Positions 3,206-37,184 of a stretch of 64,000 nucleotides of DNA are shown in pieces. The DNA comes from Glycine soja (taxonomy: Eukaryota; Streptophyta; Magnoliopsida; Fabales; Fabaceae), in the NCBI RefSeq assembly GCF_004193775.1, contig NC_041003.1, forward strand, positions 39,003,611-39,067,610. Reading direction: 5' to 3'. The position numbers and the translations under genes are program-made. The notes below the pieces were generated by a model that ran no database searches, had not been told where the DNA came from, and saw nothing but the letters and a program-made list of their open reading frames with translations. Position 1 is the stretch's first letter. Every line of letters begins with the position of its first letter.

Positions 3206-3249
3206 CAGAATTTATCTCCCTAGATCTCACTCAGTGATTTCGAGTGCCT

Positions 3250-3261
3250 GCTCTGATACCA
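3250..3261 (-). other. Primer binding site of left SIRE1 copy
   Basis: Read on the minus strand this is TGGTATCAGAGC, the usual plant copia primer site complementary to the 3' end of initiator tRNA-Met. It lies two bases after the proposed LTR end. A weaker second TGGTATCAG stands about 20 bp away inside the LTR end. Confidence 0.88.
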
Positions 3262-3263
3262 AT

Positions 3264-11729: not shown

Positions 11730-11773
11730 CAGAATTTATCTCCCTAGATCTCACTCAGTGATTTCGAGTGCCT

Positions 11774-11785
11774 GCTCTGATACCA
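11774..11785 (-). other. Primer binding site of the complete SIRE1 element
   Basis: Minus-strand TGGTATCAGAGC, complementary to initiator tRNA-Met, two bases inside the 5' LTR and 44 bp upstream of the gag start codon. Confidence 0.9.
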
Positions 11786-11787
11786 AT

Positions 11788-13929: not shown

Positions 13930-15066
13930 TGTGAATGTATGTATACATAATACAAGTTTTTGATTATATCAAAGTATAAGCAAACAAGATTGCTTCAAGA
14001 AACATTCAAGGTTAAGAAAATAGAGATTGCTTCAAGATTAATTCAAGGTCAAGCATACAAAATCAAGAAAAAGATAAGGCCTTAGTTTATTTGTTAAAAG
14101 AATCTCACACTGTTTAATAAGTTTTGGCCTCAACATCTTTAATATCAAACACTATGTTATCAAAGGCTATATCAATTCAAAAAGATATTTTTGAACTGTG
14201 TAATCAATTACCAGACTATGTAATTGATTACCAAAGAGTTTTTGAAGATATTTGTTACTAATGATACAAAATTATTTGAATTTTGATCTGTGTAATCGAT
14301 TACTAGAATCCTGTAATCGATTACCAGTGAAGAGATTTCAAAAAAACCTTTGAAAAGTCATGACTTTTCAGAAATATAACTGTGTAATCGATTACCAGAA
14401 TCTTGTAATCGATTACTAGTGAGAAAACTTCAGAAAAGCTTTTTGAAAAGACATATCTTTTCAAACCATTTTGAAAAGGCACAATGGGCCTATATATATG
14501 TGTGTCTGACTTCAAAAAGTAAGAGAGAGAGTTTCAAAGAGAACTTAATTGCCAAATCCTCTCTAAACAACTCTTGGTCAAACACTTACAAATCTATTGA
14601 GAATTCATCTAGGAACTTCAATTTGTATCATCTACTTTAAAGGAGAGAAATCTTTCTGTTCATCTCATAAACTCAGTTGTAATCAAGAGACTGTTTGTCT
14701 CTTGACTTGTAAGAATCTTGAACACAAGGGTGAGGGATCTCAATGTGTGTTCAAAGATTGTAAAGGATTTACAGAGATAGTGGAAAATCTCAAGTGGGTT
14801 GCTTGAGGACTAGACGTAAGCACGAGAAGTGGTCAAACCAGTATAAATTGAGTTTGCATTTCTCTCTTCCCTTATCTTAGTTATTTTATTCCAATTTACT
14901 TTGTCTTGCACAGTTAAAAGAACATTATTAAATTGATTGCTTCTTCTTCTTCTACATTATGAACCTATCATATATCATTTAAAAAGGGGGTTAAAATTTG
15001 TTAGTGAGAAAATTTTGAAACTTAATTCACCCTCTCTCTTAAGTTATTGAGGTCACTTGTTCAACA
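13930..15066 (+). mobile_element. 3' LTR of the plus-strand copia remnant
   Basis: About 1137 bp from TGTGAATG, right after a purine tract (AAAAAGGGAGAGGA), to TTCAACA. A TATA box lies at about 14491-14500. Upstream of it are three pairs of TAATCGATTA-type palindromes (14201/14221, 14293/14314, 14385/14406) with a 92-bp period between pairs. No coding sequence. Ends are inferred from PPT and TG/CA rules; no partner LTR is in the window. Confidence 0.72.
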
Positions 15067-15175
15067 GTTGTCACCTGCATCATCATCTTCGTTGTCGTCA
15101 TCGTTATTACTAGTACCACTATTATCGCTGACATCGTCATTAGCATTCCTGTCATGATCTTTACCACCACACAAT
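15067..15175. other. Short spacer between two LTRs
   Basis: Imperfect trinucleotide-rich sequence (ATC/GTC runs) ending in the ACAAT target duplication of the next element. Nothing else recognised. Confidence 0.5.
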
Positions 15176-16829
15176 TGTTGGATCAAGTGGCCTCAGAATA
15201 ATTAAGAAGGGGGGTTGAATTAATTATTCCTAAACTTTTACTAATTAAAAAATTACTCTTCTAAGGCTTTTACTAAATTGTTAAGAGAATGAGGAGTAGA
15301 AGAGAAACTTAACGAAAAGTAAAAGCAGAAATTAAATGGACAGCGGAAAGTAAAAGAGTAAGGAAGAAGGAAACAAACACACAAGAGTTTTTATATTGGT
15401 TCGGCAATAACCCGTGCCTACATCCAGTCCCCAAGCGACCTGCGGTCCTTGAGATTTCTTTCAACCTTGTAAAAATCCATTTACAAGCAAAGATCCACAA
15501 GGGATGTACCCTCCCTTGTTCTCTTTGAACCTAGTGGATGTACCCTCCACTAGAACTGATCCACAAGAGATGTACCCTCTCTTGTTCTCAGTCAAACCCA
15601 AGTAGATGTACCCTCTACTTGTACCACAAAGGATGTACCCTCCAATGTGTTAAGACAAAGATCTCAGGCTGTTAAACCTTTGATACTTTGTGAATGGGAA
15701 TACAAAAGAATTCTCAGGCGGTTAGTCCTTTGAACACTTTTGTATAAGGGAATGGGAAGAATCAAAAGAATTCTCAGACTGTGTCGTTTTGAATTCTTTG
15801 ACAAGGGAGAAGGGAGACACAAAAGAATTCAGGCGGTTAGTCCTTCGTTCTTTTGGAAAAGGGAGAAAAGAGACACAAAAAGAATTCAGGCGGTTAGTCC
15901 TTGGCGAATTCTTTTTGGCAAAGGGAGAAGGGAATGAAAAGATGAATAGCACAAGTTTTCAAGGTTTGGAAAACCAGAAAACTTCCGAAAGCTTTTGGTA
16001 CAAAGAAGAAGAAGAAGTTCAAAGAGATTCAAGGCTTGTAAAGGATTGTATGAATATTTGTTCAAGATTGAATTGATTTAAAATGCAAAACAAAGCTTTG
16101 CTTTTATAGACTCTTCATGTCTGGTCAAGAAGACCATTTAGAAGGATTATAACTTTTAGAAAAACTTAAAACCATTTTGAAAAAGTCAAAAACCTTTTGA
16201 AGAGTTACATCTTTTGATTTATTCAGAAACAATCACTAGTAATCGATTACCAAATTAGTGTAATCGATTACACAAAGCTTTTGTGTGAAAGGATGTGACT
16301 CTTCACATTTGAATTTGAATTTCAATGTTCAAAGGCACTGGTAATCGATTACCAAAACACTGTAATCGATTACATCTTTTTGAAAATAATTGGAACGTTG
16401 TAAATTCAATTTGAAAACTTTTTCAAAACAATTTTGCTACTAGTAATCGATTACAACAATCTGATAATCGATTACCAGAGAGTAAAAACTCTTTGGTAAA
16501 GGGTTTTGTCAAAAACTCATGTGCTATTCAAAGTTTTGAAAGACTTTTTAATACTTATCTTGATTGAGTCTTTTCTTCATTCTTGAATCTTGAGTCTTGA
16601 ATCTTGATCTTGATTCTTGAAATCTTGAACCTTGAATCTTGATTCTTGACTCTAGACTTTCTTCTTGAGTCTTGAATTCTTCTTGATTGATCTTTGATTT
16701 ACTTGAGTTGATCTTTGATTGATCTGATCTTTTTGTCATCACCTTTGTCATTATTTTTTGTTATCATCATTGTTATCATCAAAACATCTTTGAATCACCT
16801 TTGATTCACCATGAAGCTTTGCTTCTACA
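15176..16829 (-). mobile_element. Solo LTR with perfect 5-bp target duplication
   Basis: 1654-bp sequence with TGT...ACA ends flanked by ACAAT on both sides (15171-15175 and 16830-16834). There is no internal retroelement coding sequence, so it is a solo LTR left by LTR-LTR recombination. A TATA box on the minus strand (TCTATAAAAG, 16101-16110) gives the orientation. Upstream of it are three TAATCGATTA pairs (16240/16261, 16342/16363, 16444/16465) with a 102-bp period. Downstream are short imperfect repeats: GGATGTACCCTC-type units at about 15500-15640 and GGCGGTTAGTCC-type units at about 15715-15905. A CTTGAATCTTGA-rich low-complexity stretch fills 16555-16690. Confidence 0.85.
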
Positions 16830-16834
16830 ACAAT

Positions 16835-17248
16835 AATATCCTTAAACTAATTTTAGTATCATAGGAAACTTTCAAGATAAGTTTTTTTTTAAAACTAAAA
16901 ATTAGAGAAAAATTAAAACTAAAAATTAATTGTTTTTAAACTACAGTCCCCCACCCCCACCCACCTTTTTTTCTCTTCCTACCGTCCGCCAATTTTTTAA
17001 TTAATTTTTACAAAAAATGCATTTCATGGAAACTAGTTTGGCAATGTAAATTGCAAGATCTTTTAAGTTGCCACGTTGCGTCTTGGCCCATATGTGTGTG
17101 GATAATGAGCCTTGCTGTGAAATCCAATAATTTTTCGTGGGAATTTAAGACCTCTGTCCCAAATTCAAATGATTTTATGTTATTTGTATGTTATATGGTA
17201 TTGAATATTAAAGAACTGCAGATGGACCGGCAGCCTTGGTCTCTATGA
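16835..17248. other. AT-rich spacer
   Basis: Between the solo LTR and the TIR element. Homopolymer-rich; a short C-rich patch lies near 16946. No gene recognised. Confidence 0.5.
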
Positions 17249-17256
17249 TAATTTTC

Positions 17257-18311
17257 GGCAATTGCTATTTCCATTTCCTTTCTTTACTCTTTTTTTTTTT
17301 TTTTGACAATCTTCCATTCTTTACTTGTACACTTCCTTTCTCTTTTTTAAACCCTAAATTATCCTTGTAAGCACACACTCCCCCATACCCCGATTATTCT
17401 TTCAGTCCCTCACTTTCCCTTGCTATTACTGCATCCAATACAACATTGAGAAACCAATTCAACTTATTCAACCCGGAAAACAAGAATTTTGGTATCGAAA
17501 AATTGTTATAACATCATTGACAATAGCATAATTTAAGTGAGAAGGTATTCGTTGGATTTGAGAACCCTCGTGTGGAGTGCAATCAAGGGGGTCGATGTTG
17601 AAGGTTAAACATGGCATGTGATCGTGCGTCTAACCGATTGATGTATGTTTTTTATTGGTTTATGGACACTGGATACAAGCCTGCTGGCACATGCATATCT
17701 GTATTAGATGCTAAGATGCTTCCTCTTCTTCAGATCTTATTAAATAAAATTGAGAATAGGGCGCTGGATTTCATTCTTTACTATAAGGAAGAATTAAAAT
17801 TTATGGTTTGTGTCTTTTTTTAATTCATCTTTATCAAATTTTCTAATAACAATGCTCATTCTGGCAAATCCGTTTTTTCCTTTTTGTTCTTCATCTTATT
17901 GTTTTATATTAACTATATATGCATGTACAATCTCCCGATGGTATAAATTGCTAAACAAGAGTATTAATTGTATATAGTTTTACCATTAGCCACTCGTTCT
18001 AACAATATGCAGAGAGGGGTTAGATCTAGAAGAACAATTTATTCTCCAAAGTTGAATCCAATTCAACTTATTGACAAAAGTTGATATACATCCTGAGTTG
18101 TGTTTTTCAGTACCAACATTGTTTTCCGAATTGAATAAGTTGAATTGGATTCTCCGATACCGCAATACTGTACATGTATTGGATACAGTAATAGCAGGGG
18201 GAGTGGAGGTGTAATTGGGGTTTGGGAGTGTGGGCTTACAAGGATAATTTAGGGTTTAAAAAAAAAGAAGGAAAGTATATATGTAAAAAGGGAGTGAAAA
18301 TAACAATTTCC
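17257..18311. mobile_element. Non-autonomous element with long terminal inverted repeats (MULE-like)
   Basis: The segments at about 17257-17480 and 18090-18311 are imperfect inverted repeats. They share the start GG(C/A)AATTG, an AAACCCTAAATTATCCTTGTAAG block and a CTATTACTG block. The element is flanked by TAATTTTC on both sides (17249-17256 and 18312-18319), an 8-bp target duplication. Long TIRs and an 8-bp duplication fit Mutator-like elements; hAT also makes 8-bp duplications but has short TIRs. The middle holds a 70-codon frame (17611-17823) of unknown origin that could be a captured gene fragment; I do not recognise it. No transposase. Confidence 0.75.
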
Positions 18312-18319
18312 TAATTTTC

Positions 18320-18831
18320 TTAAGACAATGGTTATAAGGAACTGGATTTGAGTGTAGTCGACAAAAAATAACTGCTAATGGCTTTCATCGGTTTGATGAC
18401 AAGGTTAATTTGCAAAATATTTCATTATAATATTATACCCTTATTATACTAACAGTTAAACTACTTAAAAATAGATGTAATGTAGCAAACGGTATACAGT
18501 GTTTTCATGCACCCTTAGAACATACATCAATTCGCTTGTGTACCATTATCTATTATGATTCCTAGTTCTTGAATTTCACTCCTCTAAAGTGAGGGAAGTT
18601 TAGTATATATTTTAAAGAATAAATTTATAATAATAATAATCATTAATTAGAAAATTAATAGTTGACATTGCAATCACTATTGATTTTTAATCAATATTAT
18701 AAGTAGACTTTGCTATTTGAAGTGTAAGTCCTCACTTTCAAGAAGCAAAACCTGAAAATTTACACACTTCAAAAAGTGTATCTAGCTATCAATGACGATG
18801 GTGTTAGTTCTGGCAATGTGATGGAGCAAAA
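18320..18831. other. AT-rich spacer
   Basis: No reading frame, repeat or RNA gene recognised. Confidence 0.5.
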
Positions 18832-18858
18832 ATGTCCTTATGTCAATCGATTCATCTA

Positions 18859-18921
18859 GAAGAAGGTTCTTCTGGAATAACTACCGGTACTTCTGGTAGT
18901 TATTCCAGAAGAACCTTCTTC
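18859..18921. repeat. Perfect 27-bp hairpin of the CTTCCGG family
   Basis: Arms 18859-18885 and 18895-18921 are perfectly complementary with a 9-base loop. More GAAGAA/TTCTTCC units follow to about 19015. The same word family fills the two subterminal arrays of the neighbouring MULE, so this may be the detached end of a related element. Confidence 0.8.
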
Positions 18922-19015
18922 CAGAATAAGAACTTCTTATACCGGAATAAAAAGTTCTTCTTCCGGAAGAAGAACCTTCGAAAGAAGAAACTTCTTCCGA
19001 AAGAAGGTTTTTATT

Positions 19016-19394
19016 GGAAAATATTTTTAAAAAAATTAATGGGCCAAGACTCAAACCCAAGATTCTGGAGTTATTATGACAATGCTCTAACCAATTAAGT
19101 TAATGAATCAATTCCATTATAAAATAAATAATACTAGTATACATAAATTATTACTATACATAGTTATCACTAACATTTCTAATGCATATTTAATGCGCAT
19201 GTAAATTTGAATAATAAATATTTACTTATGTAATTTGTATATTTTTTTAAAAATAAAAAATATTTTTTATGACAACATTTTATTTGTATTACAAAATTTA
19301 ATATATATTAAATAAATATTATTTATTTTATAACAACGTGAATTAAATATGCATTAAATTTTATAATAATAATCCGAATTAAAAAAAATATTTA
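19016..19394. other. AT-rich spacer left of the MULE
   Basis: Very AT-rich with TAATAAATA-like runs. No gene seen. Confidence 0.45.
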
Positions 19395-19729
19395 ATGCAA
19401 CCTTTGGTTTTCTTAAACTTTTAATGACAATTTTGCCCCTATTTTGTTTTTCTTTAAATTTACTACGCCTGCTTCCAGTTTTACGCTTCCTTTGTGTTTC
19501 ACTTTCACTCTCATCCTGTGTGCTGGGTGGTTTTTGCAAGCTTTGGTGGTTTTTGCAAGTTTGTTGGAAGTAGTTGTTCAGTGAAGGTTAAAATTGGTGA
19601 TTTCTATCGTAGTTGCTCTTCTTATTCCCTTGGAGGTACGTATTTTATAGTTTTTTTTTGGTTTTTTTTTTTTTGTGTTCATATGTTACAAAAGAAGCAG
19701 TAAAATGCCGAGGAAGGTTATTCAGTAAA

Positions 19730-19870
19730 AAATTCTTCCTGAAGTTGATGCTACTTATTCCGAAAGAAGCTTTTCTGTAATAAGGTGTGTCAGCTTCCGA
19801 AAAAAGTTTCCGGAAGAACTTCTTCCGGTAGTGCACACTGCTTCTTTTGGAAGAAGTTCTTCCAGAAACT
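19730..19870. repeat. Left subterminal CTTCCGG palindrome array of the MULE
   Basis: Several short inverted units built from TTCCGGAAGAA and GAAGTTCTTCC words, about 340 bp inside the left MULE end. It mirrors the array at 27428-27635. Likely transposase or host-factor contact sites, or hairpin-forming sequence; function inferred. Confidence 0.65.
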
Positions 19871-20171
19871 GTATTTTTTTAATTTTTTTGGAATTGTGTT
19901 TTTAAATTTGTAAAAAAATTAATATATATGAATATTATAATTTATAATATTTGTATTTGATATTTTTTTAATTGTGGATAATTGGTTTAATTAGGTATAA
20001 TAATTTAGGTATATTATTAAATGATTTAGATAAAATAATTGTATTTTGTTGTAGTAGTAAAATGTTTTATTAGTTGTTAGTTATAGTGTTAACTTTAGTT
20101 TAAGTAAATAATTTAGTTTTAACTTATGTATTACTTGTGTATGATGCATAATTTAATAATATGTCGTTAAG

Positions 20172-23133
20172 ATGAACGAAGATCAATGGACGTATAACTA
20201 TACGATGTCACAAGAAGTTCATATGAATTATGATAATGAAGAAGAATGTGGTGTGAATGAACCACATGTTGATTGTTCGAATGTTTTTAATACCTGTCAG
20301 GTAATCATGTTCATTAGTTTGAGTCATTTGGTTGAACGTATGTTTCATATAAAAATTAATATGTCGGAGTTGCGTTGTAGGTCTTTGGTACTCGCGATGA
20401 TGTTTTGCAATGGGCTTGAACAGTTGCCCATGAAAACGGATTTGTTACAGTGATTATGAGGTCAAACACAGATACTGGTAGCAGAGGAAGAAGTTCACTT
20501 GTGTTAATTGGGTCTGAAAGGAGTGGTCTCTACAAGTGTAGGAATAAAGAATTCGTTAGAAGAGACATTGAGAGTAGGAAATATAGTTGTCCCTTCAGGC
20601 TTCGTGGGAAACCAGTGCATGGAGGGGAAGGTTGGATGGTGAAGTTGATCTGTGGGATTCACAATCATGAATTGGCCAAGTCCTTAGTTGGACATCCATA
20701 CGCTGGACGATTGACTAAGGATGAAAAGAAAATTATTGCTGATATGACAAAGTCGATGGTGAAACCAAAAAACATCTTGCTAACGTTGAAGGAGCACAAT
20801 GCAAACAGTTGCACCACGATCAAGCAAGTTTACAATGCAAGAAGTGCATATCGTTCTTCAATAAGAGGAGCTGATACCGAAATGCAACATCTGATGAAAT
20901 TTCTCGAACGTGATCAATACATTCATTGGCATAGATTGAAGGATGAAGTTGTGGTGCGTGATCTGTTTTGGTGTCACCTAGATGCAGTAAAGTTATGCAA
21001 TACATGTCATCTGGTGTTTTTTTATAGATAGTACCTACAAAACAAACAGGTACAAACTCTCACTACTTGACTTTGTTGGGGTGACACCAACGGCGATGAC
21101 ATTCTTTGTTGGGTTTGCATATCTGGAGGGTGAGCATGTTAATAATATTGTATGGGCTTTGGAATGGTTTCGAGATCTATTTTTAAGAAACGATTGTCTC
21201 CCTGTTGTTATTGTCACTGACAGAGACCTAGCACTGATGAATGCAGTGAAAACTATGTTCCCGGAGTGTACAAACTTGTTGTGCAGGTTTCACATCGATA
21301 AGAATGTCAAGGCGAAGTGTAAATCTTTAATCGGTCAAAAAAATGCCTGGGACTATGTGATGAATAACTGGGGTACTTTGGTTGATTGTCCGTCCGAACA
21401 AGAATTCGCTGAGTCCCTTCAAAAGTTTTAAATTGCTTGTTCACCTTGGCCAATGTTTGTTGATTATGTTAACGACACACGGATTATCCCCCACAAGGAA
21501 AAATTTATTACAACCTGGATGAATAAGGTCATGCACCTAGGCAACACAACAACAAACAGGTATTAAAATCTTGTTTTTTTTTAGTAAGGATTATTAATAA
21601 ATGGTATTCAATTGTTGTATATTTTTCATGTTTGTTGTGTATTTTAAATGTAGGGTTGAATCAGCTCATTGGGCTCTAAAAAGAGTATTACAAAATAGCC
21701 TTGGAGACCTGTGTAGTGTTTGGGATGCCATGAACAACATGATCATGTTGCAACACGTTGAAATTAAAGCATCATTTGAAACCAGTATGCATGTGACTGG
21801 ACATGTATTTAAAAAAACCTTATACATGAGGCTTGTTGGAATGGTTTCAAGGAATGCTTTAAATGAGATTGTTGGCGAGGTTGAGCATCTACGTTATCTC
21901 GGCAATGATCCCTCTTCTTGTGGTTGTGTGATGAGAAGCACACTTGGTCTTCCTTGTGCATGTAAGCTTTCTAGGTATACTGTTGGCAGCATCCCAGTGG
22001 ATTCAGTCCATATGTTATGGAGGAAACTTTGCTTTTCAGACCAAGGGTTATGTGAGGTCGAAGTCAGCATCAAGGAAGAGATTGAGACCATATCTAAAAG
22101 ATTTGAGGAACTTGATGTGTGTGGCAAACTAACTCTCAAGAGTAAACTTCGAGATATTGCATATCCTGATCATAACTCTATGTGCCCTCCTCCGTCAAAG
22201 GTCAACACTAAAGGTGCACCGAAGAAACCGATGAAAAGAAGTCAAATATCCACAAAGCGTGATCCTTCTTACTGGGAGTATGTTGATGCTTTTCATTCTG
22301 TTCAAAGCAGCAACTCTTCAGTGAAACGTAGTGCATCATCTTCTGAACCGCAGAAGCCAACAAGGATCATCCCGATGTTGGATCAATTTGCGCCATTTAT
22401 ACAGGATTTCATTCACAACGTTGTGGATGTGAAAGCGGACGGTAACCGTGGATATCGGTCCATTGCCGATTTATTAGGTATGGGGGAAGATTCTTGGCCG
22501 TTGGTGCGCGATGAATTGATTAAAGAACTTGGCAGATGGTCGCATGACTACACCAACCTCTTCGGTGGCACAAAGAGATTTGAACAATTAAGGTTGTCCC
22601 TACTTGTTGATGGGTTTTCCAAGGTATGTTTTTAGGTTTTTTTTTAAGAACAAACTTTAAATAACTTAGATGTGTATGTTTGCTTGATTCAGGTTAGTGT
22701 GGACAAGTGGATGGATATAACGAAGATGGAATATGTCATTGCATCACGGTATAACGTAATCCTTGTTTCGTTGTCCCGAAAACAAAGCATGACATTTTTT
22801 CCTCTTAGAAATCAACCACCACCCGATTCTTCTGTGCATCGCATGATATGTGTCAGTCACGTGTTTGGAAATCATTTTGTTCAGGTACATTGAAGGTAGT
22901 TAGTCTAAGAATTATGCAATCACTTCCCTGGTTCATTTGAGTTAATAATGTTTGTTCACGCACAACAGGTTTATTTGAAAGACCGATGTCCTTTACCGCC
23001 TCTAGCATTGTTGTGGTCAACCAATTGTTATTCTCAGGCAAAGCAGTGGCCAACTTCATATATTAGTAGAATGCAGCAGTACACAAGCTTGATGTCATTC
23101 AAAAGAGACTATGTCGACCTAAATGAAGACTGA
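20172..23133 (+). pseudogene. MULE transposase with C-terminal OTU-like domain, inactivated
   Basis: Spliced gene with exons about 20172-20300, 20381-21559, 21654-22623, 22693-22884 and 22969-23133, all with GT/AG borders. Order: FAR1-type N-terminal zinc-binding segment (KYSCPFRL...CGIHNHEL); MULE DDE core with D near 21025 (DSTYKTNRY), D in VTDRDLALMNAV near 21220 and E in RVESAHWALK near 21660; SWIM-type segment (CGCVMRSTLGLPCAC); then an OTU-like domain. Breaks: TGA at 20417-20419, an extra base in a T-run near 21016-21022 that shifts the frame, and TAA at 21429-21431. The OTU catalytic segment reads DGNRGYRS, with Arg (CGT 22447-22449) where active OTU proteases have Cys. Family assignment is firm; the OTU call rests on the motif and its position. 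Confidence 0.85.
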
Positions 23134-23467
23134 ACATGCATTGTTTATCTAATTGTATTCATTATGCGATATAATTTGTTGTAAGTCATTAAAGGATAAT
23201 TATTAAGTACTCGTTGCGTTAAAAAAAAATTAGTTGGTGCAACCAAAATCAATTACGCATGTACGATACATCGTTGTCATAATTGACAACACATAATGAT
23301 ATGCATGCGTATTAAAGTTTGAGCGTGACACGACATTAACTTAGTAGGAAACATAAACACGAAACATGTTCACACGTGTTCTTTTGTAAAAAAAAGTGAA
23401 GCAATCTGTCGGTGAGAACCATGCATATGTATGAGACACGGAAAATGCTAATAAATCACACATTATC

Positions 23468-24334: not shown

Positions 24335-24412
24335 ATGCAACATTGCTTTTTTTGTTTTTAATGTAACTTTTATCTGTTTGTTTACAACGTGTATGAATTC
24401 CATAATAAAATT

Positions 24413-24990
24413 GAAGGGTGGAAATCCTATTTTTTTAATTTCGTGCTTTTTTTTAGGTGTTATTCGGTGGAATCGGCTGACGATATTATTTTTTTTGGCT
24501 TCTTTGACATCCAAACAAGAAAAATAGCGCCCCTCGAATATCTTAGGCGACTCGCACATAATTTTAAAAAAACCTCGAACATGGGTACTTGAACATGTGT
24601 GAAGGGTGGAAATCCTATTTTTTTTAATTTCGTGCTTGTTTTTTTAGGTGTTATTTGGCGGAACCGGCTGACGATATTATTTTTTTTGGCTTCTTTGACG
24701 TCCAAACATGAGAAATAGCACCCCTCGAATATCTTAGGCGACTCGCGCATAATTTTAAAAAAACTTCGAACATGGATACTTGAACATGTGTGAAGGGTGG
24801 AAATCCTATTCTTTTTTTAATTTCGTGCTTGTTTTTTGAGGTGTTATTCGGTGGAACCGGCTTATGATATTATTTTTTTTGGCTTCTTTGACGTCCAAAA
24901 ATGAGAAATAGTGCCCCTCAAATGTCTTAGGCTACTCGCACATAATTTTAAAAAAAACCCCAAACATGGGTACTTGAACATGTGTGAAGG
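24413..24990. repeat. Three-copy tandem repeat of about 190 bp
   Basis: Units start at 24413, 24601 and 24792 with a partial fourth at 24986 (periods 188, 191 and 194 bp). Each begins GAAGGGTGGAAATCC and ends near TTGAACATGTGT. Copies differ by point changes and homopolymer length. Lies between the plus- and minus-strand genes of the MULE; frames within it are not real genes. Confidence 0.92.
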
Positions 24991-25301
24991 CTCCAAATCC
25001 TATTTTTTTAAAAATTTAGCTATCTTACTTTAAAACATAAACATTTAGCTATCTTATTTTTAAAAATTTATAATTTTAATCTCATTCTTATGAAGGAAAG
25101 TCATCATTTTCGGAATCGGAATCGGAATCAGTGTGCCATATAGAGTGCAAAAAAAGTAAAGTAAACTATATTAAACAAAAAAGTGTAACAAATACAAAAA
25201 ATGATGTCAACTACAAAACATAAAAAACATCATCAATGCTCTGTGCGCCGTCTTTGTCGAGCCCTAACACTTCCATCTGCGCTGGCAATCCTCATGCAAT
25301 C

Positions 25302-27287
25302 TTACATGATATCATGTAACTCTGTCCCTGTAGTGACCATCCTAAGGTTGAGCACACGCTCCAACCTTTCTGCAATCGTCTCATAGCCTTCGTAATCATC
25401 CTGTGGCAGTCATAAAAAACATTTATTACAAAATTTAAAATAAATAACAATTCATCAAACATTAAACGCGCAAACAATCTTACCACTGCATGTCGAAGGG
25501 GGTCAAATGCCACTGGAACCTGTGGGATGTCCGGCTGCATGTAGTCCTCATGGTCTGGGCCAGGTGCATGTCTGGGCTGGTCACCTGCCTGGGTAAGTAT
25601 CATGAATGGGTGAGATATCTGAAAAACCACTCCATGTAATCCGCAGATACCTGCCCAGGCACTACACAAAGGTCACCCACAACTACTACGTGGTCCGAGG
25701 AATGCATCCATCTGTCATCTATATCATCATATGACAACGAAGCACTAACAGGCGGCGGAGGGATCCTCTAAATGTACCCACACTAGCATAGCACCCTCTC
25801 CGGTCGAACTGTGACCACCGTAGGACCCCATCTCAGCTGACCATGGAACGATGAAATTAGCTCAAACCCCCTAACCCCTCGATGGTCACTGTAAGGCAAC
25901 CAACACACGTCTGTGACAGTCAAAGCATAACAACATGCCCGGTACGGTGCTCCTGTAATTCCCTTCATATGAGCCTTCATCGTCAGCCACCGGGAGGCAC
26001 GAGGGGACATCTCCTCATAGGCATCATCGGTGACACATTGATGCACACTCGGAAAATGCTCATAGATCCAGCACTACAAAAAAAAAATAGGTTAACATAA
26101 CATAAAAACATGTTTACATCATAATCTAATGTAACATATTAACAACACAAAATTTACCTGTAATAAAGTAAGGTACCCCTCAATTTTCCGTGTTGTGGTC
26201 CTAGAAGCTTTATTTAACTGGTCATACATATGAACCAGGGCCGCAGCTCCCCAGGCATAGCCCCCACTCTGACCCAAGTCGCAAAAAGCCTCTAGATGCA
26301 CCACGTGAACATTTGTTGCACTCTTGTTAGAAAAAAGAGTGCAACCGACCAGGTGCGGGAGATAAGCATGAGCTGCTACAATCCATCGTCGTGCCTGGCA
26401 TCTCATCTCATAGATCTCCCGAACCCATGAGAGGCGTATATATGCCCCGCGCGCTCATACTGTCTCGGCTCTAGCCTCCTCACCAGACACCTGAGCAACT
26501 CCATCAACAAAAATATCGCCCCGTCCACGAAAAGAGTCTCGAAGCTATGGAAGACGCCACTGATAGGGAGATGGAGGAGTGACGACACATCATCTAGTGT
26601 GATCGTCAACTCTCCTACTGGAAGGTAGAAGGTGCTGGTCTCCCTGTGCCACCTCTCCACAAATGCGGATATAAGTCCAGGATCGCCGGTTACAACTGAA
26701 CACTCGATCAATGGACTTAATCCTGTGGCGACAACCAACCCTTCAATCACAGGCACTGGCCTCCCAATTAACGTCACCTTCCTCCCGTGCGACACCAACT
26801 TCAGCTCAGGATGCTCCTGAATTGAAGTACAAATCATTCAAAATACACAAATATCAACAAATTTTAATGACAAACAAATCAAGAAGAAAAAGGTAAGAAA
26901 TTATAATACCTGTCCAGTCCAAATGGCATGTGCGACATGCTTCGCAAATGAAGTCAGAACTGATGGGTCACGGGGCCCACCAGGGAATCCCTCATCAGCA
27001 TGTGACCCCTCAGCACCATCACGTCCTAAGTCCTCTGCAACAGTCGAATCTACGTTCGCGGTCATCTGAGGCACATCTTCACTCCTCTGAGCAACATCGT
27101 CAACCATATGAGGGACATCCTCAGTCACCTGAGGAACACCCTCATCAACCGTAATATGTACTCGTTGCCTACGGGCTGATGCAGTAGGCCTATGCCTCTG
27201 GGGAACATTGACTGCATCATGCTCATCATGTCTACCTCTACCTGTAACCCTAGCTAAAGCATGACCTAAACCTCGTGTTCTAACCAT
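25302..27287 (-). pseudogene. Plant mobile domain (PMD) gene inside the MULE, frameshifted
   Basis: Resembles the plant proteins often annotated as serine/threonine phosphatase 7 long form homologues, which carry the transposon-derived plant mobile domain. Exon 1 is 27287-26910 (126 codons, MVRTRG start, Arg- and acid-rich). After an intron, exon 2 starts at 26816 with ISAFVERWHRETSTF and ITLDDVSSLLHLPI. A frameshift near 26490 moves it to a second frame (YAWGAAALVHMYD) ending at a splice donor near 26158. Exon 3 starts near 26070 (MSPRASRW, RWGPTVVTVRPERV) and shifts frame again near 25790. A last exon from about 25399 ends at the stop at 25302. Two or more frameshifts make it a pseudogene. 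Confidence 0.75.
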
Positions 27288-27427
27288 GATCTGCAAATCA
27301 TGAAGAACACATATTTTTTTTGGGTCAAATAAACTATTCATATAATTAAAAACCTACATATATTTACATAAATCTTCAGCCTTACGTTATAAACCATAAT
27401 CACACTACCCTAAGCGTTGTTGACTAC

Positions 27428-27635
27428 CTGAAGAAGGTTTTTCCGGAGAAGCTACCGGAACAAGTTCTTCCGGTAACTTTACCGGAAAAACCTTCTTCCG
27501 GTATAACAAAACGTTCTACCGGAAGAAGGTTCTTCCGGTAGCTTCTCCGGAAGAACTTTTCTTCTACCGGGAGAACCTTCTTCCGAAGAAGCTACCGGAA
27601 GAACTTCTTCCGGTATAACAAAACGGTTGATTTTC
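27428..27635. repeat. Right subterminal CTTCCGG palindrome array of the MULE
   Basis: Five or more inverted units built from GAAGAAGGTTCTTCCGG and GCTACCGGAAGAA words. Mirrors the array at 19730-19870 at a similar distance from the opposite end. Confidence 0.75.
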
Positions 27636-27921
27636 AGGCGATTTTCAGGTCTTCTACCCTAAAGCCATGATCTCCTAAACTAACTAAACAGTTAACCTAT
27701 GAGAGGAGGGGAGATAGGGGTTACTAACCTCGACGGCAGAAACGTAGCAACGGCACCAGGGAAGCTTCGCAGCAACGCAACAATGGCAGATGGCAGGCAC
27801 GGAGGAAGAAGAAACGAAGACAAGAAGAAAGAAGGCAGAAAGGAGTGAAAGAAAAAACAAGGGACATCGCGTTTTCTTTTTAAATTTTAACTTAAGGGCA
27901 ATTTTGTCATTTCATAAAATT

Positions 27922-27953
27922 GCTAGGTGCACCAGCAACTGGGTGCACCTAGC
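27922..27953. repeat. Terminal hairpin at the right MULE end
   Basis: Inverted GCTAGGTGCACC / GGTGCACCTAGC with a short loop, next to the proposed element end. Fits the last bases of a MULE terminal repeat. Confidence 0.6.
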
Positions 27954-27959
27954 ATGTCC

Positions 27960-30120
27960 CGTGTTGCTTCTACTTTTCTACGGATCCTTGGCAAAATCCT
28001 TCAAAATGTTACTTTGTGCACCCTCGTATAGAAGTCCTTCAACCTTGATGGTGACACTAACTCACCGAAACCAATGGGCAAAATCAATGTAGAGACCTTT
28101 AATTTGTTTTTTAGAGAACAAATTCAAATATCTAGATAAAGCTCTTCTGATACCAATGGAGCAAGACCCAAACTATAAATCATGGAAAAAGGTTTAATAA
28201 CATTAACTATCTCATTCATGGATTATGAACTCAATATCACCTTCAGTCCTTCACTAATCACTAGTCACTAACACGTACAGAGCGTGGTATATGTGGAGAA
28301 ACGTGTGTGAATAGTCACACATGATTATGTGATTAGTCATGTGGGTTTTTTCAATAGAAAATAAATTATGCACAAATACTTGGTTAGTTTTGGTAGTTGG
28401 GACTTAATTGGACTTTAAGAATGTGGTCAGAAAAATCATTATTGGAAGAAGACAATCCACCTATGAGTGTCAACAGATTCTTTGAAAGAAGTTTAGAAAT
28501 TCCAATGATCAAATATTCCTTTATAATTATATATGTAAAAATAAAAAATAAAAAAATTATATACTAATAATGTAAAAAAAATTATACCATTAATCAATAA
28601 AAAATCTTTGTTGACATAACTTTTAATATAACTATATATTATAAAATTAATAAATTTATCATAATAATTTATAATTAAATAATAATATAAAACTAATCTT
28701 ATAACTCTTTAAGTTATCATATAACTTTAGATCTTAACTATTCACTATTCAGGTATGGTTACGTTAATTGTATCATATTACAATATTACACACTATAAAA
28801 TGAGTCACTTGTTGATTTCGCTGAAAGTATTTTAATAATTTTTCTCTAAAAATGAAATCTACTGATTTAGATGTCATCATATAGCTTGCCTAACCCACTT
28901 ATATAAATTAATACTAATTAATCATTCGTTCTGTCCTATAATATCATTTATTATATGGAGTTGACGAACACAATGACGTATCTCCCCACTTATGTATTTT
29001 TATTGGAGGCCATCACGATAAAATGAGGAGGTCATGGAGTTAATTATAAGAGGAGAAGATTCTAAGCCAGAATTTTCACATTTTAAAAACTCTAACAAGA
29101 TTCTAAAGGAGAATTCTTTAAACATAAAACCAAATTACATAAATTATCCCGGGAGATGGAAATAAACAAGATTAAGAACACTAATCCGCAAAAATATTAT
29201 ATTTTAAATGTTTGAGATTTACTTTAAAATATGCTATATAAAAAATAAATACACAGGTTATAGTTTTCTACAATGATTCTTTCCTACTATAAAAAGAAAT
29301 AATGATTCTTTACTTGCTTTTAGGTCTTAAATTTATTTATAGGGATATGAGTAGATTATAAGAACTTAGAAAAACCTATTTTTAGTTATTTTTGGTAACT
29401 AAATTAATTTATAATAAAGATTAATCAATGCAGATAAATGACTATCTGTTAAATTTTCTATTTACACACATTTCAAATTTCATTTAACTATTATGCGTAG
29501 TTCACTTGTTAAATTTTTATGGGCTTAAATATATTATTTTTTTCCTTGTAATATTTTTATTTCAGTATTTATTAAATTATACTTTTTTTAAAAAAATCTA
29601 TAAAACTCAATTTTTAAATATTGATTCTTGTTGTTTCTTGGTCGCCATAAAGTGAGGTGACTAAATAGTCTAGGAATAAAATAAAAAAAGACGTTATAAC
29701 AGATAGAGGAACTAAAATAAAAATGAGATATATTTATAGAGACTAGACTTAAAATTATTTAAAATGGTGTGCCATTACATGACTGGATGAAGTAGCTAAT
29801 AACAACTAAGCAATGATAGGGATTAATAATGCCAAAATAAATATTACAGGGAGTATTTTAAAAAAAAATATTACAAGAGCTAAAATTATATGTAAGCCAT
29901 TTCTATTCGAATGTATTCTTTTATTAGTTTTTATTCTAATGTATAATATGCTTAATGAGAATGATATTTTTTTAAAAAAAATTGGAGTTTAAAATATGCT
30001 TTTGATTCATGTAAATTTAATTAAATATAGTTTTACTTTCTTTCATTAATTAATTTTCTTAAAAATATTATATCACCACTAAAATATGTTATAAGATATT
30101 TATCACATTATCACACAATA

Positions 30121-30123
<3 letters not shown>
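27960..30123. other. AT-rich intergenic spacer
   Basis: Only short frames. A retroelement-leader-like GATACCAATGG lies at 28150. Nothing else could be assigned. Confidence 0.5.
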
Positions 30124-30166
<43 letters not shown>

Positions 30167-30167
30167 G
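30124..30167. repeat. (TTA)n microsatellite
   Basis: About 14 uninterrupted TTA/ATT units. Likely length-polymorphic. Confidence 0.95.
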
Positions 30168-30636
30168 CAATAAGCAACAAGCAATTAATACTATTTTGAA
30201 TTCTTAACTTCCAGACACAAAGCCTAAGCCACTACCTGCGACTCAGGCTTTGATACCAGAGCAAGAATTGAAGCAAGAGATAAACTAATGCAAAATTGAA
30301 TGAGATACTTACAAGAAGGAAGCTAGCATAAGAAATCTTGAACAACAAAAGGTTTGATTGAAACAACAAAAGACTTGATGGAAACTTCGATGGAATACCA
30401 TTTTATTATAGCAACAAGGTTTATACAAGAGGAAAGAAAATAACTCAACTTACACTCCCAAGAAAGCACACTTTTAAGAGAAAAGTAGAACTAAGATCTA
30501 ATGTGCTAGTCTATACATGAGACCCCTTATTTATAATACTCTTTTACAAATAAAATAAACCCTCGTGTTGCACACTATCTAATATTTTATTTGAATAGTA
30601 ACATTCTAAAATGTTTCTTGAAACTTGTGAAAAAGA
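30168..30636. other. Spacer with possible retroelement leader remnant
   Basis: A GCTTTGATACCAGAGC segment at about 30248 resembles a decayed tRNA-Met primer site. No coding sequence recognised. Confidence 0.4.
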
Positions 30637-31993
30637 TGATGGAGCTCCCAAATCAAGAGGGGGTGAATTGGTTTCTAAATAAAACCAGACTTTTTAAAAT
30701 CAGAGTAAAAAAACTTCTTTTCCCCAGATCGTATCACAAACTTTTGATGAACCAATATTTAATCAATCACTATTTACACAAAATCATTTGTTAAAGTCCT
30801 TTCTTTGAAAAGATATTTTCTTTAACCTTCAGTAAATTGATCAAGACCGGAATGAGAAAGAAAGATAAGATCAAGAGAAGAAGTACACCAATTTTTATAC
30901 TGGTTCACTCTCTATCTCTAGAGAAGCTAATCCGGTTATCTAATCTAACCCGAATTAGATTCTCACTATGCATATAGAATTCTTACAAGCAATCTCAGTT
31001 CCTACCTCAGAAAAAGAGACTAAGGTGTCTAACCCTATGGTCCTTTGTGAATAAGAGCCTAAGATAAACCTACCCTTAGTCCAAACTAGAAAAACCTATT
31101 CTAGCAAGCCCTCAAATATTCATGCACATACTAACAATGTGTAAATCACACGAAAAGTAGAGTCAAAGAAAGACATAACCTGATCAATCATATGCAAGAT
31201 CCATCCTTGAATTAATGAGTGCCTTCTTGAACTCAAGAGAAATTCATAACTCACTTTTCATAATATGATCTTCATAATCAAATATTAGAAGTTGTCAGTC
31301 ACATTGTATTTAAGCACTTTTTTTCTTCTCTTTATCACTTACTTCAGCTCATACAAATTTCGCACTTAATTTTTCCACACTGAAGTGAGAACACAAGGTG
31401 GCTATGTATAGAAAAAATAGTTATAATCGCCTGTAATCGATTAAATATATAATGTAATTGATTATTTAAAAGAAGTAATCGAATATATTATCTTTTCAAT
31501 CGATTAAAGTGTTCTTCTAAAAAATTGAAAAACTTTCAAGAACAATGTAATCGATTAGATTCTTGATGTAATCAATTAAAGTGTTATTCATCACTTCAGA
31601 AATATTTTTCAGAGAGAAGTAATCGATTATGATCACTTGGTAATCAATTAAAGCAGAGACTTCTAAAAAACCAATCATTGTCTCAAAAAGAATTGTGTAA
31701 TCGATTACGATTACCTTGTAATGGATTAAACCGATACGAAAACTTCTCTGCAAGCTACAAACACTTGTATAATCGATTATGATCAACCTGTAATCAATTA
31801 AAACATAGAGTTTTAAACATAACAGAAAATTTCTAACTTTAGAACCTTTCTTCTTACTCCTACATGATGATGCATATATGAAAAATTAGAGACTAAGATG
31901 CAACACACAATACAACAATCAATACAAATGTCACTCAAGAGAGTTGGGCATGTAAAAGAAAAAACTTCTTCAAGCTTCAAGGCTAAGTCTTCA
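30637..31993 (-). mobile_element. LTR with six palindrome pairs (minus strand)
   Basis: About 1357 bp. On the minus strand it begins TGAAGAC just after a purine tract (plus-strand CTCCCCCTATCTCTAACA at about 31999) and ends CTCCATCA at 30637. TATA-like GCTTAAATAC lies at 31306-31315. Upstream of it, six pairs of TAATCGATTA or close variants start at 31434/31455, 31476/31497, 31548/31569, 31620/31641, 31698/31719 and 31770/31791, each pair 21 bp apart. No partner LTR or primer site is adjacent, so it is a solo or truncated copy. Left end inferred. Confidence 0.65.
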
Positions 31994-32639
31994 TGTTGCT
32001 CCCCCTATCTCTAACAACTTGAAGGTAGTAGTTGCTTCCATGATGACATCTTTTGAAAAAAAGAGTCTTGGCAGATTTGGGACTTGAAATGTTGTCATTA
32101 AGATTGCATGTTCATGATGAAGTTCTAAAGAATCTTGGTTGTATGTTGACAGCAAAATTTGTGCATGAAAAATAAGCTTTTGGCCTTATGTAAGGTTGAA
32201 TGCTCTTGGTATTTAGATTTTAAAATCTGAAAATGTGTAGCCTTACATGGTACCATTTTGTGTCTTGTGGTGCCACACAATTTTTGCTTAGGTGTACATT
32301 CCTTAACAGTCTTCTTCATTGTCTAGTGAAACATTTTTTAGGCTTGATGAGGCCTCGTCCTCGAGGTCCACTAATGGTGTTGAACTAACCTCTTTTAATC
32401 TTGTCATTCTTCTTCAGAGGTTGTGGAGACCAAGGCCACCATTATTTTATTTTTTTGCTAAAAATGATGATTCTTTATTTGTTTGGACTTTTATCTCAAA
32501 CCTTTGTTGGGACATTTTTACCCATTCATCAATTTTTTCTTTTCTTACCAACGAGATACCAAATTTGTTCCACCATTTAACTCTATTGATCTAGCTAGAT
32601 ATTGAGTGTCTGTCTCATGAAAGAGTTTTATTGAGTCTT
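31994..32639 (-). other. Retroelement-derived spacer beside the LTR
   Basis: Begins with the polypurine tract of the LTR at 30637-31993. The remainder is unassigned; the short frames at 32125-32319 (-) and 32319-32594 (+) match nothing I recognise. Confidence 0.35.
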
Positions 32640-34580
32640 GAATCATATCATAATCCCATGACATAATTCATGCTAGGCCTTGGCTAGCTACAAATGATAT
32701 AAACCTATAGCCTTGAACAAAGGTGGTTATTTCATTAACATACTCACAATTGTCTTTAACTTGTTGTGGCAATAAATTAACTGTGGGTCCAATATTGTTG
32801 AACCACATGAGGAACCATTTTGTAAACTTTAGTGAAATTCCCTTTTTGAACCAGAAAAACCACAAATGTTGAAAATGCCAAAGGTAAAAAGTATTGTACC
32901 AAGCATCAATATAATCATAATAATTATATGGTTGCGGAGAAAATTGTCTTGAGAAGGCCTTGGATTTATAGAGTTCTTGATTCATGTCTTTAACTGAGAG
33001 TACTTTAAGGATCTTTGCTTTTGAAAACATGATACCCTGACCCATTGGATCGTCATGATGATGTATTTCTATTGAATCTGTATCAATTAGGATAAACTCA
33101 TAAAATTTTCTTGTTTTCGCTCGTTCATGAGGGATGTAATGGTATTGAGGGGGAAGTGCCCTCTAAGCTACTTCTCTAGGGTGAAACCTAGGCCATTCTT
33201 TTTCAATTATTATTATTTGCCTAAGCTCTAATTTTTCTTGGTAGTTTTGATCCGAATAAGATGAAGAAGGTTGACTTCTAGTGAGGTTAGAAGGCTAAAC
33301 TAAAGAGTTATGGTATTTAAGAGAGATAAATTTATTCTAATGTGGGATTAAGGGATTTTGCAAGGTTGTTGGTTTTCAATCTATTTTAACAAGAGGTTTT
33401 TGAACAACTTGAGCCATAGCGAGTGGCTTTTGGGAAACAAGTGTTGAGCTTAGAAAAGGAATCGATGTTGAAGGTCTTACTGGTCGTAATGATATTAAGA
33501 GGCTATCACTTAGTGGAAGGCCATATTGATCCATTGACATTGCTTTACTACTCATTTTGATCCTTGCAAAAACTCTCTTGTTAGAAAATCTGGCACAGAA
33601 TTTTTATCCCCTTTGATATGAATAATATCAAAATCAAAACATAAGTAAAGATTTCCATCTGGAAAAAATATGTTTAGAAACCAATTTTTTTACATCATTC
33701 TTTAAAACACTTAGTGTTGCTTTACAATCAATCCTTACTAGAAAATGCTTGCTAAATAGATCATCTTGAAATTTGGTAATGCATAAAACAATAGATAAAA
33801 CTTCTTTTTTAATCATAAAGTACTTTTGTTGAGATGAATGTCAAATGCCCGAATAATATCTAACTATTTGTTCTTTAGAAGAATTTTTTGAAACTTGCCT
33901 TAGGATTCCTCCATACCCTATGTCTGAGGCATCAATTTCTACAATCAAGGAGGCTTATGGATCCAGAATTCCTAAAGAGGGAAAATGCTTTGTAATTTGC
34001 TTAATTTCAATAATCACTTGGGACATGTCAGCATTCCATGGGGGTGGATTTTTCCTTAATCTCTTATATAATAGGGCACAAATGGTTCTAATATTTGGAA
34101 TAAAATCTGCTACATAATTTAAGCATCCTAAAAATCTTTGTAATTGATTTTTATCTTTAATTTCATTTGGAATTTTTTTTTGCAAACTCTAGAGATCTTT
34201 GGATTGGGATAATTGTTCCTTGGTATTTTCCATATCCTAGAAACATATTCTTTGTTTGGAATATTTTTGTCTTTTTTCTGAGACCACCAACCCATTTTCT
34301 TTGATTATTTCTATAAATTTATTTAAATGAAAGATATGTTAATTTATTCCTTTTGAAAAAATTAGTTCATTGTCCTAATATACTACCAAAAATTCCATAT
34401 ATTGGTAGAAAATATCATTCATAATATTTTGAAATTCACTTGCCGCATTCTTCAAGCCTTGGGGCATTACATTCCATTCAATATGTCCAAAAGGGACTAC
34501 AAAAGCAGTTTTGTATCTATCACCCTCAACCACTGAATTACAAATTGCTAAAATTGAAAATGCTCTCCACAATTGGTCAA
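32640..34580 (-). pseudogene. Endogenous pararetrovirus-like RT / RNase H remnant
   Basis: Decayed minus-strand pieces in the order expected of a caulimovirid-type polyprotein. An RT segment (34375-34572: DRYKTAFVVPFG and MPQGLKNAASEFQ) is followed by the RT connection region (33955-34185: LQRFLGCLNYVADF, NPPPW). An RNase H segment with an EIDASDIGYGG-like stretch lies near 33900-33950, its helix region at 33634-33816, and a C-terminal YYDYIDAWYN / FKKGI segment at 32668-33045. Stops and frameshifts separate all pieces, and no coat or movement protein was seen. Ty3/gypsy RT is the alternative, but the motif wording is nearer caulimovirids. Long dead. Confidence 0.62.
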
Positions 34581-34842
34581 TACCCGTTATTAAAAAATCT
34601 GATGTTTACAAACAACAATCTTTATGGTCATCATCCCCTGATGAAGAAATTCATATGCTTGAGTATAGTTACCCTGGAACAAAAAATAATGAGGTTATCA
34701 ATATCAAGAACAAGAAATACTAGACAAACATATTTCAAAAGGCTTTAATTTCATACATTTAGGCGTAATACAAGTGGCGACCAAACCAAACTATAGGCTA
34801 GGAACCAATACACCAATAATCATGTTATTCAGAGATATAAGA

Positions 34843-36900
34843 TTAAAAATATTTACTAACTATATTATAGCTATCATGGCTAGATGACTCATCCTCCATA
34901 CCCAAAATGTAAAAATCTACAAGGAAAACCAAATCATTAACTTTGACAAGTACATCCTCCATAACTCCAAGTGGTTGTGCAGTGCTTCGATTTACTAACA
35001 GAATGAACACTTTAGTTGGCCTCAAATCACCAAGCTGGAAGGATCTGTAAACTGATGTAGGCATGACATTAAGGGGAGCACCTAAATCTAGCATGACATC
35101 TACAAATGTACTCTCACATATGGTGCATGGGATAATGAAAGTGCCAGGATCTTTGCACTTTTGTGGCATGGTGGGCTAAGTAATGGCTGAAACATTGGTA
35201 CTCTGAATCAATCCAGAACCATTTCTTCCTATCTTCTTCACTTGTTTATCGTCTGGAAGATTTCTCTTACATGTGCACAACTCCTTGAGGAATTTTGCAT
35301 ACTTAGGAATTTGTTTGATGGCATCAAGGAAAGGAATGTTGATCTCAACTTTCTTGAAAATCTCCATCATCCCACTATCTAGCTCTAGTCTATTTGGAGG
35401 AGCAACTTTGGATGGAAAAGGGAGGGGAGGTTTGGAATTGTTGCATTTACACTTGTTTGCTGAAATTTAGAACTTATTGCAGCACTACTTTTCTTCAATT
35501 TAGAATCTGGTACATTATTTTTTTGTTGTAGCTCCTTTCCACCCCTTAAAGTCATGGCACTGTCATTCCCTTTTGGATTAACAACTTTTTAGGAGGGAAG
35601 TTGGCTAGACCCTTGCTAATGCAACTTGTTCATAGTGGTAGCTAATTAGGCAATCCAAGTTTGCAAATCATAAATCATGGCAGACACTTTTTGTTGGAAC
35701 TAAATGTTGATTGTGGCCATTTGCTTCACCAATTCCTATAAAAAAAAAATTCATGCATTGTTTTGGACAGGTTGGGTAAGTTGTTGGACAAGTACAATAA
35801 CTTGTTGGAAAGGTAAAGGTGCTTCCTCTTGTTGTTGTTGTTGTCTAAATGGAGTTGGTTGGTACTTGTTACTTGTTACTTGAATCAACTTGTTGTTGCA
35901 ACCTCTGTTGTTGTTGCCCTACAAATTGTTGTTGTCTTACATATCGCTACTACATAGAACCATATCTCAGGTTAGGATGATCTCTTCAACCAATATTATA
36001 CTTATCAGAATAAGGATCATATTTCTATTGTTGTTGTGGAGGTCTATATTGCTAGCCAATCAAGATTCCAGCAACATTTGCAATTAAGTCAATCTCTTGG
36101 AGGGTAGGACAAGTATCTGTAGGATGTTCTACAAAATTGTATATGACACATCCTCTGTGATTTTCTGCATGAACTTGTTGGTGTTGTCCTATGGCTAGCT
36201 GTCTAACGTAGAAAGTTAGCTTTGTAACCTTGTTTTTCAACCTATGATTGCCAACAATAGTGGTAACTTCGTGAGCTCATTTGGAAGACAAAGTTCTAGA
36301 ACTAAACTGTTTGGAGTTTTCTGCCATGTTGGAAATTCATTGCCTAATAGCAACTGATGTTTTTTCCATAAACCTCTTATAAAATACCAACCTGTAATCC
36401 AGTGGGCGGATAAACAACATTAAATAGTCGTTTTAGGAAAGCTCCACCACTAGCTGCACCAATCATGCTTTTGTCCATTGGCAACAACCATTCATAAAAA
36501 TACCAGATGAGGAGTTACTCATTGATGTTATGATTTGGACAACTTGCATACAACTTGTCGAACCTCTCCTGGTACTTATACAAAGTCTCTTAAGATAGTT
36601 ACCTTGTACCTTTTATATCTTTTCTAATGGCTACAGTTCTAGAGGCAAGAAATAATTTCTCTGGGAACTTCTTTTCATATCATTCCAGCTATTGATGCGA
36701 ATTGGGATAAAATATAGATAGTCCTTTGTCGTGTTAACCAAGGAGAAGGAAATGCCTTCATTTTGAAGTAATCTTTAGGAACAATGTGAGGTCACAAGGT
36801 GGAGCGGACCACATGAAACTCCTTAAGGTGCCTATGAGGATCTTCACCTACAAGACCATGAAACTTAGGCAACAAATGGTTTAGTCTAGACTTAAACTCT
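34843..36900 (-). pseudogene. Ty3/gypsy gag and protease remnant
   Basis: Minus-strand pieces of a gypsy (Athila-like) polyprotein. A gag core lies around 36250-36900 (including an ERFDKLYASCPNH-like stretch near 36540-36600). A CCHC-like segment ending in VEHPTDTCPTLQ lies at 36052-36240, a linker at 35176-35370, and a retropepsin segment at 34843-35169 (KCKDPGTFIIPC, MLDLGAPLNVMP; the usual catalytic Asp-Leu-Gly is kept). Frames are broken throughout. Its RT is not next to it; the RT remains to the left look caulimovirid, so this is a separate nested fragment. Confidence 0.68.
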
Positions 36901-36924
36901 TACCAAGAAGTTTTCTTTACTTGG

Positions 36925-37165
36925 GCAAGTTTCTCAAAGACTTATGTAATCGATTACGCATGAGTGGTAATCGATTAAAGTAGTGAGAAATATAGCACTA
37001 AAGACATTTCTTGTCTCAGAAACTATCTTTCTAATTCTATATGATGATGCATGATGTACATACAAATAAACTAAGAATGATAAACAACAAGCAATACAAA
37101 TTCCACTCAATAAGGAGTTTGTCATGTAAAAGTCAAAACTCTTATAAGTCTTCATGTTCATGTTG
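36925..37165 (-). mobile_element. LTR end fragment of the 30,637-31,993 family
   Basis: Ends with the same minus-strand start (ATGAAGAC after a GGGG-purine tract and GTTAGAGATAG) and holds one TAATCGATTA pair at 36947/36968, 21 bp apart. The rest of the LTR is missing. Confidence 0.6.
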
Positions 37166-37184
37166 TTCCCCTATCTCTAACACA

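Follow-up and report, generated by a model that had tools for sequence, protein, structure and literature searches.

Repeated cis elements in the U3 part of long terminal repeats (LTRs) are thought to recruit host factors in the tobacco retrotransposons Tnt1 and Tto1 and in tomato TLC1; we know of no palindromes paired two helical turns apart in these elements. Sirevirus LTRs carry palindromic repeated motifs (RM), for which promoter tests have been called for, and in tobacco Tnd-1 the RM is ACAATCGATTGT, present in 8 LTR copies (Bousios et al. 2010, PMC2829016, cited here and below from excerpts). The same excerpts identify a symmetric regulatory sequence in Tnt1, its box I, and partial accounts of ONSEN and EVADE provide precedents for host factors that bind plant LTRs. 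Here we describe a 64,000-nucleotide stretch of Glycine soja (contig NC_041003.1, positions 39,003,611 to 39,067,610, forward strand; hereafter the window) in which copia-type LTRs carry the palindromic box TAATCGATTA in pairs with a near-fixed step of 21 bp. The module and its spacing in plant copia LTRs are real, and to judge from its sequence the module is most likely regulatory. Judged by analogy, it adds a near-fixed 21-bp step to a known type of palindromic LTR motif.

Paired palindromes in the window

Boxes that match TAATCGATTA exactly or with one mismatch form 13 two-box modules. The step between boxes is 21 bp in 12 of these and 20 bp in one (14201/14221), and all 13 pairs reported in a first-pass annotation of this DNA were located in the sequence. 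That annotation had also read each box as an inverted dyad and the step as two helical turns; the symmetry is present in the boxes, 21 bp does correspond to two turns, and the near-fixed spacing belongs to modules that lie in U3. The box pairs are:

14201..14415, plus strand: box pairs A1-A3 (14201/14221, 14293/14314, 14385/14406); 92-bp module step, spacings 20, 21 and 21 bp
16240..16474, minus strand: box pairs B3-B1 (16240/16261, 16342/16363, 16444/16465); 102-bp module step, every spacing 21 bp, no mismatch in the 60 box bases
31434..31800, minus strand: box pairs C6-C1 (31434/31455, 31476/31497, 31548/31569, 31620/31641, 31698/31719, 31770/31791); 72-bp steps, one of 78 bp
36947..36977, minus strand: box pair D1 (36947/36968); two perfect boxes, spacing 21 bp

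The steps between the first five modules of LTR-C are 72, 78, 72 and 72 bp, and its last two modules merge into a four-box row at 31434-31506 (31434/31455/31476/31497) with 21-bp steps throughout. Sites with at most one mismatch number 29 in the window, 26 of them inside modules and three single (40569, 47141 and 61365). The 20 pair distances of 60 bp or less are 20 bp (one), 21 bp (13), 42 bp (two), 51 bp (three) and 57 bp (one), the thirteenth 21-bp distance arising because the four-box row keeps the 21-bp register. By comparison, 200 first-order Markov sequences contained 3.15 sites on average; pairs no more than 60 bp apart averaged 0.010, with zero at 21 bp. Among the perfect 10-bp palindromes of the window TAATCGATTA is the commonest (17 copies, the runner-up ATATATATAT having 12), and among perfect 12-bp palindromes the commonest is GTAATCGATTAC (11 copies, mostly in LTR-A and LTR-B by their flanks); the full GTAATCGATTAC is present in 11 of the 26 module boxes.

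The single near-box at 61365 lies in a copia element at 58579-62504 (minus strand), which has short 203-bp LTRs that are 98% identical, a pol split between two frames, and no box pair.

The LTRs and their relationships

The LTRs that carry the modules, with adjoining features, are as follows; remnants of coding sequence were found by tblastn with the copia pol of the window.

13930..15066, plus strand: LTR-A, 1137 bp; purine tract AGGGAGAG GA/TG before its start, end ...TTCAACA
13227-13665: gag-pol remnant of the decayed copia element that owns LTR-A
14491..14504, plus strand: TATA-like sequence of LTR-A, 76 bp past the last box
15176..16829, minus strand: LTR-B, 1654 bp, TG...CA, a solo LTR flanked on either side by the 5-bp target duplication ACAAT
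~30650..31998, minus strand: LTR-C, its ends approximate and set by eye, adjoining the octamer AGGGGGAG (31999-32006, minus strand)
36930..37170, minus strand: LTR fragment D, of the LTR-C family
37185..39922, minus strand: decayed copia integrase and reverse transcriptase (RT) remnants, oriented like D and upstream of it

Copia-type pol thus adjoins A and D, and the same tblastn search gave no match adjoining LTR-C. We class all of the module-bearing LTRs as copia-type, A and D from their pol remnants, B and C from their sequence homology to A and D.

The first-pass annotation, which also listed one LTR fragment, had described the three LTRs as looking unrelated outside the motif, and this holds only in part. 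LTR-A and LTR-B are homologous over about 310 bp of R/U5, up to the LTR end (350 alignment columns; local score 56, against a mean of 24.0, standard deviation 2.6 and maximum of 33 in 200 shuffles), and they can be aligned with the boxes masked (best piece E = 2.8e-4). Fragment D aligns to the 31.4-32.0 kb region of LTR-C at 72% over 130 columns, again with boxes masked, so that the 36947 pair belongs to the 31434 family. With boxes masked, the U3 of LTR-C has no significant likeness to that of A or B. R/U5 scores are 32 for A versus C (maximum of 200 shuffles, 32) and 34 for B versus C (shuffle maximum, 35), and by eye only there are short look-alike stretches common to A and C (AACCAGTATAAA; ATTCACCC). 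Two clear lineages, A+B and C+D, are therefore present on sequence grounds, which may perhaps be a single one.

Comparison with Sirevirus motifs

The Sirevirus RM is the closest known system, and the Tnd-1 RM shares the AATCGATT core with the window box. A CGG-CCG core, reported in 12 of 13 Sirevirus RMs, Tnd-1 being the exception, is absent from the window box with its core TAATCGATTA. In copy number, the boxes amount to 6 in A, 6 in B and 12 in C, compared to at least 8 RM copies per Sirevirus element; B is a solo LTR, and A and C are decayed. The placement is similar. RM clusters begin 200-400 bp past the junction of polypurine tract (PPT) and LTR and before the TATA box, and the first box lies 272 bp (A), 356 bp (B) and ~199 bp (C) into the LTR, with a TATA-like sequence 76 bp (A), 132 bp (B) and 121 bp (C) downstream of the last box, albeit one of a kind that is common in the window. 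RM boxes form CpG islands; the window clusters have CpG observed/expected ratios of 0.84 (A), 1.22 (B) and 1.55 (C), compared to 0.45 for the whole window, yet their GC content is just 0.27-0.30. A fixed pair spacing is not described in the excerpts of PMC2829016, whereas the window boxes keep a 21-bp step.

The Sirevirus PPT consists of AGGGGGAG followed by AT/TG, in several copies. LTR-A has AGGGAGAG GA/TG instead, with two purine-tract copies, and LTR-C has a single AGGGGGAG followed by CAACATG; decay may account for both departures. Another element of the window, at 4398-4825, has five AGGGGGAG octamers and an AT/TG junction, and the box was not found in this clear Sirevirus. The elements of Tnt1, Tto1 and TLC1 are repeated in U3 like the window boxes but have different sequences.

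The statement in the first-pass annotation that no function had been described is uncontradicted by the literature found, albeit with a close relative, the Sirevirus RM, already published. Judged by title and abstract among the matches listed, the open-licence literature holds no work on this motif in legume LTRs. A paper on enod40 has no bearing on the motif in the part available, and the excerpt of a chickpea marker paper (PMC3050819) contains the letters aatcgatt once.

Constraint on the boxes and their spacing

The boxes are conserved over their surroundings. In LTR-B, where every box base is perfect, the two linkers match at 19 of 63 positions in register, and the three equal-length linkers of LTR-C (the fourth, of 39 nt, was left out) match at 9/33, 12/33 and 18/33. 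Nine boxes are variants, with the change in the central CG in seven and in an arm in two (P = 0.0003 under uniformity, a value that ignores shared descent and CpG decay); three of the seven central changes may be one inherited change. CpG is retained in the boxes: over whole LTRs the observed/expected ratio is 0.23 (A), 0.41 (B) and 0.54 (C), and four of the six CpG remaining in LTR-A are within boxes. Module steps (72, 92 and 102 bp) and LTR lengths vary by family, whereas the 21-bp box step is constant.

Spacing was followed more widely in open reading frame (ORF) products read through relatives of these LTRs in public contigs, with matches listed up to E = 1. Translation of a box gives [LVI]I[DN]Y or N[RQ]L depending on the frame, and nucleotide distances are therefore recoverable, including those that are not multiples of three. 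The set comprised 77 proteins, or 74 without the three from the window itself (P0007, P0012 and P0014); the third search scored the best 7985 candidates by most shared words. The 137 gaps of 30 nt or less in the 74 products are 21 nt in 127 cases, 20 nt in seven, 18 nt in two and 22 nt in one, against 0.01 after residue shuffles, and with one member per cluster (59 clusters) the 21-nt gap accounts for 92 of 102. Spacers within the pairs vary, 58 being distinct at the amino-acid level. Frame-changing lengths occur in 31 of 55 linkers of 45-60 nt compared to 8 of 137 pair gaps (Fisher P = 7.5e-14, which is too small because the copies are not independent). Rows of three or four boxes that keep the 21-bp step are present in 16 of the 74 products.

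The 20-nt gaps come from a recurrent FNRLPCDIIDY-like module, one each in P0004, P0013, P0023, P0024, P0031, P0062 and P0070. In the metagenome products P0066-P0068 the box module continues the reading frame of a preceding stretch rich in lysine and glutamate, which by eye resembles a coiled coil; this looks like the incorporation of an LTR piece into a gene.

Prokaryotic and viral contigs

Prokaryote contigs served as a spacing control. The scan covered at least 117 stretches (L006-L122, GTDB contigs), and among the 126 pairs listed 5 are at 21 bp, the peak being 27 pairs at 31 bp. Among the prokaryote pairs listed 21 bp is thus not the favored distance, and it is not a general property of the palindrome. 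The bacterial pairs cluster at 30-32 bp (50 of the 126 listed), with many Enterobacterales among the matches listed, which suggests an unrelated bacterial operator.

No plant relative emerged from the viral contigs by pair pattern, RT or TGTAATCGATTACC. The pair pattern occurs in five viral stretches with spacings of 21, 22, 23, 23 and 38 bp, and the one with the 21-bp pair (L005) was rejected as a plant relative, its ORFs being phage- or bacterium-like by eye. A 242-amino-acid piece of RT compared with the viral contigs gave 15 pattern matches and zero relatives. The 14-mer TGTAATCGATTACC is found in 111 viral stretches, none of which has a box pair within 60 bp or matches the RT piece by tblastn.

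A candidate array of dyad sites in U3

We consider it probable, from the sequence features above, that the paired boxes are enhancer-like sites in U3 at which a dimeric plant factor docks along a single helix face and switches copia-type LTRs on. Each box (TAATCGATTA, or the full GTAATCGATTAC) would be a two-fold symmetric site for such a dimer. Two boxes, at times three or four, 21 bp apart would place neighboring dimers on the same face and allow joint binding, and tandem duplication of the box pair, the way in which enhancer repeats multiply in other plant LTRs, would have produced the 72-, 92- and 102-bp repeats. Boxes with their own dyad, changes centered on CG, the kept CpG and the location in U3 together suit a dimeric DNA-binding factor. 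Protein binding, cooperativity and raised transcription are what we infer from these features.

The identity of the binder is a guess. The GTAAT/ATTAC arms suggest a homeodomain factor, and a GARP/MYB-like factor, a class with a GATT core, is an alternative guess. The HB-9 probe core GTAATGATTAC, recognized by the HD-Zip III protein REV in an electrophoretic mobility shift assay (PMC6478692, in excerpt), has inverted GTAAT/ATTAC arms like the window box. It is, however, 11 bp long with one central base, and the full window box is 12 bp with a central CG; the 11-bp core was not found in the box, which has an extra base at the dyad, and the spacing of the half-sites is altered accordingly.

A more specific version is put forward tentatively, as a possibility only. 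Here GTAATCGATTAC dyads in 21-bp register, from pairs to rows of four, would form a spacing code recruiting a cooperative, possibly CpG-methylation-sensitive host-factor oligomer, kept by several copia families as a transcriptional master switch.

Several observations weigh against a regulatory array. Linker length is mostly kept inside the window families (102/102 in B; 72 bp in 3 of 4 steps in C) and linker sequence is largely lost; indels are therefore rare, and inheritance could explain the constancy within families. The spacers are partly alike: they match at 48% in B and 40% in C, where 26% would be expected. Modules A2 and A3 arose by a fairly recent duplication, being 83% alike across the 92-bp unit (z 5.9 for the linkers that follow them). 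The module steps of 72, 92 and 102 bp are non-integral numbers of helical turns, and helical phasing between modules was dropped as an idea for this reason. TATA-like matches occur in 82 of 224 window tiles of 285 bp, so that the placement of such sequences downstream of the boxes is weak evidence. The window copies with pol (A and D) are decayed, and present function cannot be assumed for them. The ORF searches were seeded with two window ORFs in which 21-bp pairs were already present, and the products are non-independent, 70 of the 74 coming from C-family queries and 4 from A (each with a 21-nt pair gap). Finally, a 20-bp step is present in module A1 of the decayed LTR-A and in seven of the 74 ORF products, which indicates that 20 bp is tolerated in places.

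The strongest of the alternatives is that one ancestral LTR duplicated the palindrome 21 bp apart, and that rare indels left the length unchanged, the spacing having no role of its own. The homologous R/U5 ends of A and B, the single C/D family, the A versus C score that equals the shuffle maximum and the B versus C score just under it are all as expected from such descent, as are the mostly constant linker lengths and the somewhat similar spacers within families. We nonetheless regard inheritance alone as unlikely. It is the weaker account because frame changes are common in linkers and scarce in pairs of the ORF set, because boxes are conserved where linkers are not (in LTR-B the boxes are perfect although the linkers have drifted to chance), and because of the pattern of box variants; the 72-, 92- and 102-bp steps and the LTR lengths, moreover, differ between families and 21 bp does not.

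Formation of a hairpin, a reading that the first-pass annotation also offered, is quite improbable. The two boxes of a module would pair in the transcript, or in DNA, as a stem of 10-12 bp closed by a loop of 9-11 nt, and the structure would serve the production of small RNAs or the stability or packaging of the RNA. On paper this pairing stands: the sense strand allows all ten stem pairs in 10 of the 13 modules, G-U counted, and the changes in module A1 are matched on both sides, although C2, C5 and C6 each have one unpaired position. A hairpin requires the second box to be complementary to the first, however, and it leaves unexplained why each box is a dyad in itself, why the spacer length is exact, and why rows of three or four boxes keep a 21-bp register. 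Chance, or a low-complexity artefact of AT-rich DNA, has nothing beyond the AT-rich composition in its favor and is refuted with next to no residual probability by the 20 pairs observed where the simulated sequences give 0.010.

If the U3 array is confirmed, it would be a simple handle on the switching-on of a plant retrotransposon group, and the paired boxes would be ready-made bait for the host factor. Solo LTRs such as LTR-B could then seed response elements near host genes, and the palindromic motifs of Sirevirus LTRs, themselves unexplained, would gain a spacing rule.

Other features of the window

The sequence ATTTCAAA, which we take to be an ethylene-type octamer, has one copy in LTR-A and 14 copies across both strands of the window, and it is not used as support here. 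Two 4399-bp stretches, 1-4399 and 8525-12923, are 100% identical and cover an LTR and the 5' part of gag-pol from a Sirevirus-like element, whose pol frame of 1579 amino acids is uninterrupted and whose second frame has 675 amino acids (Transposase_32). They reflect either a tandem arrangement that shares a middle LTR or an assembly artefact. At 24412-25009 there is an array of about three 191-bp repeats with 91% matches, and remnants of a plant mobile domain lie about 1 kb away (26119-26837).

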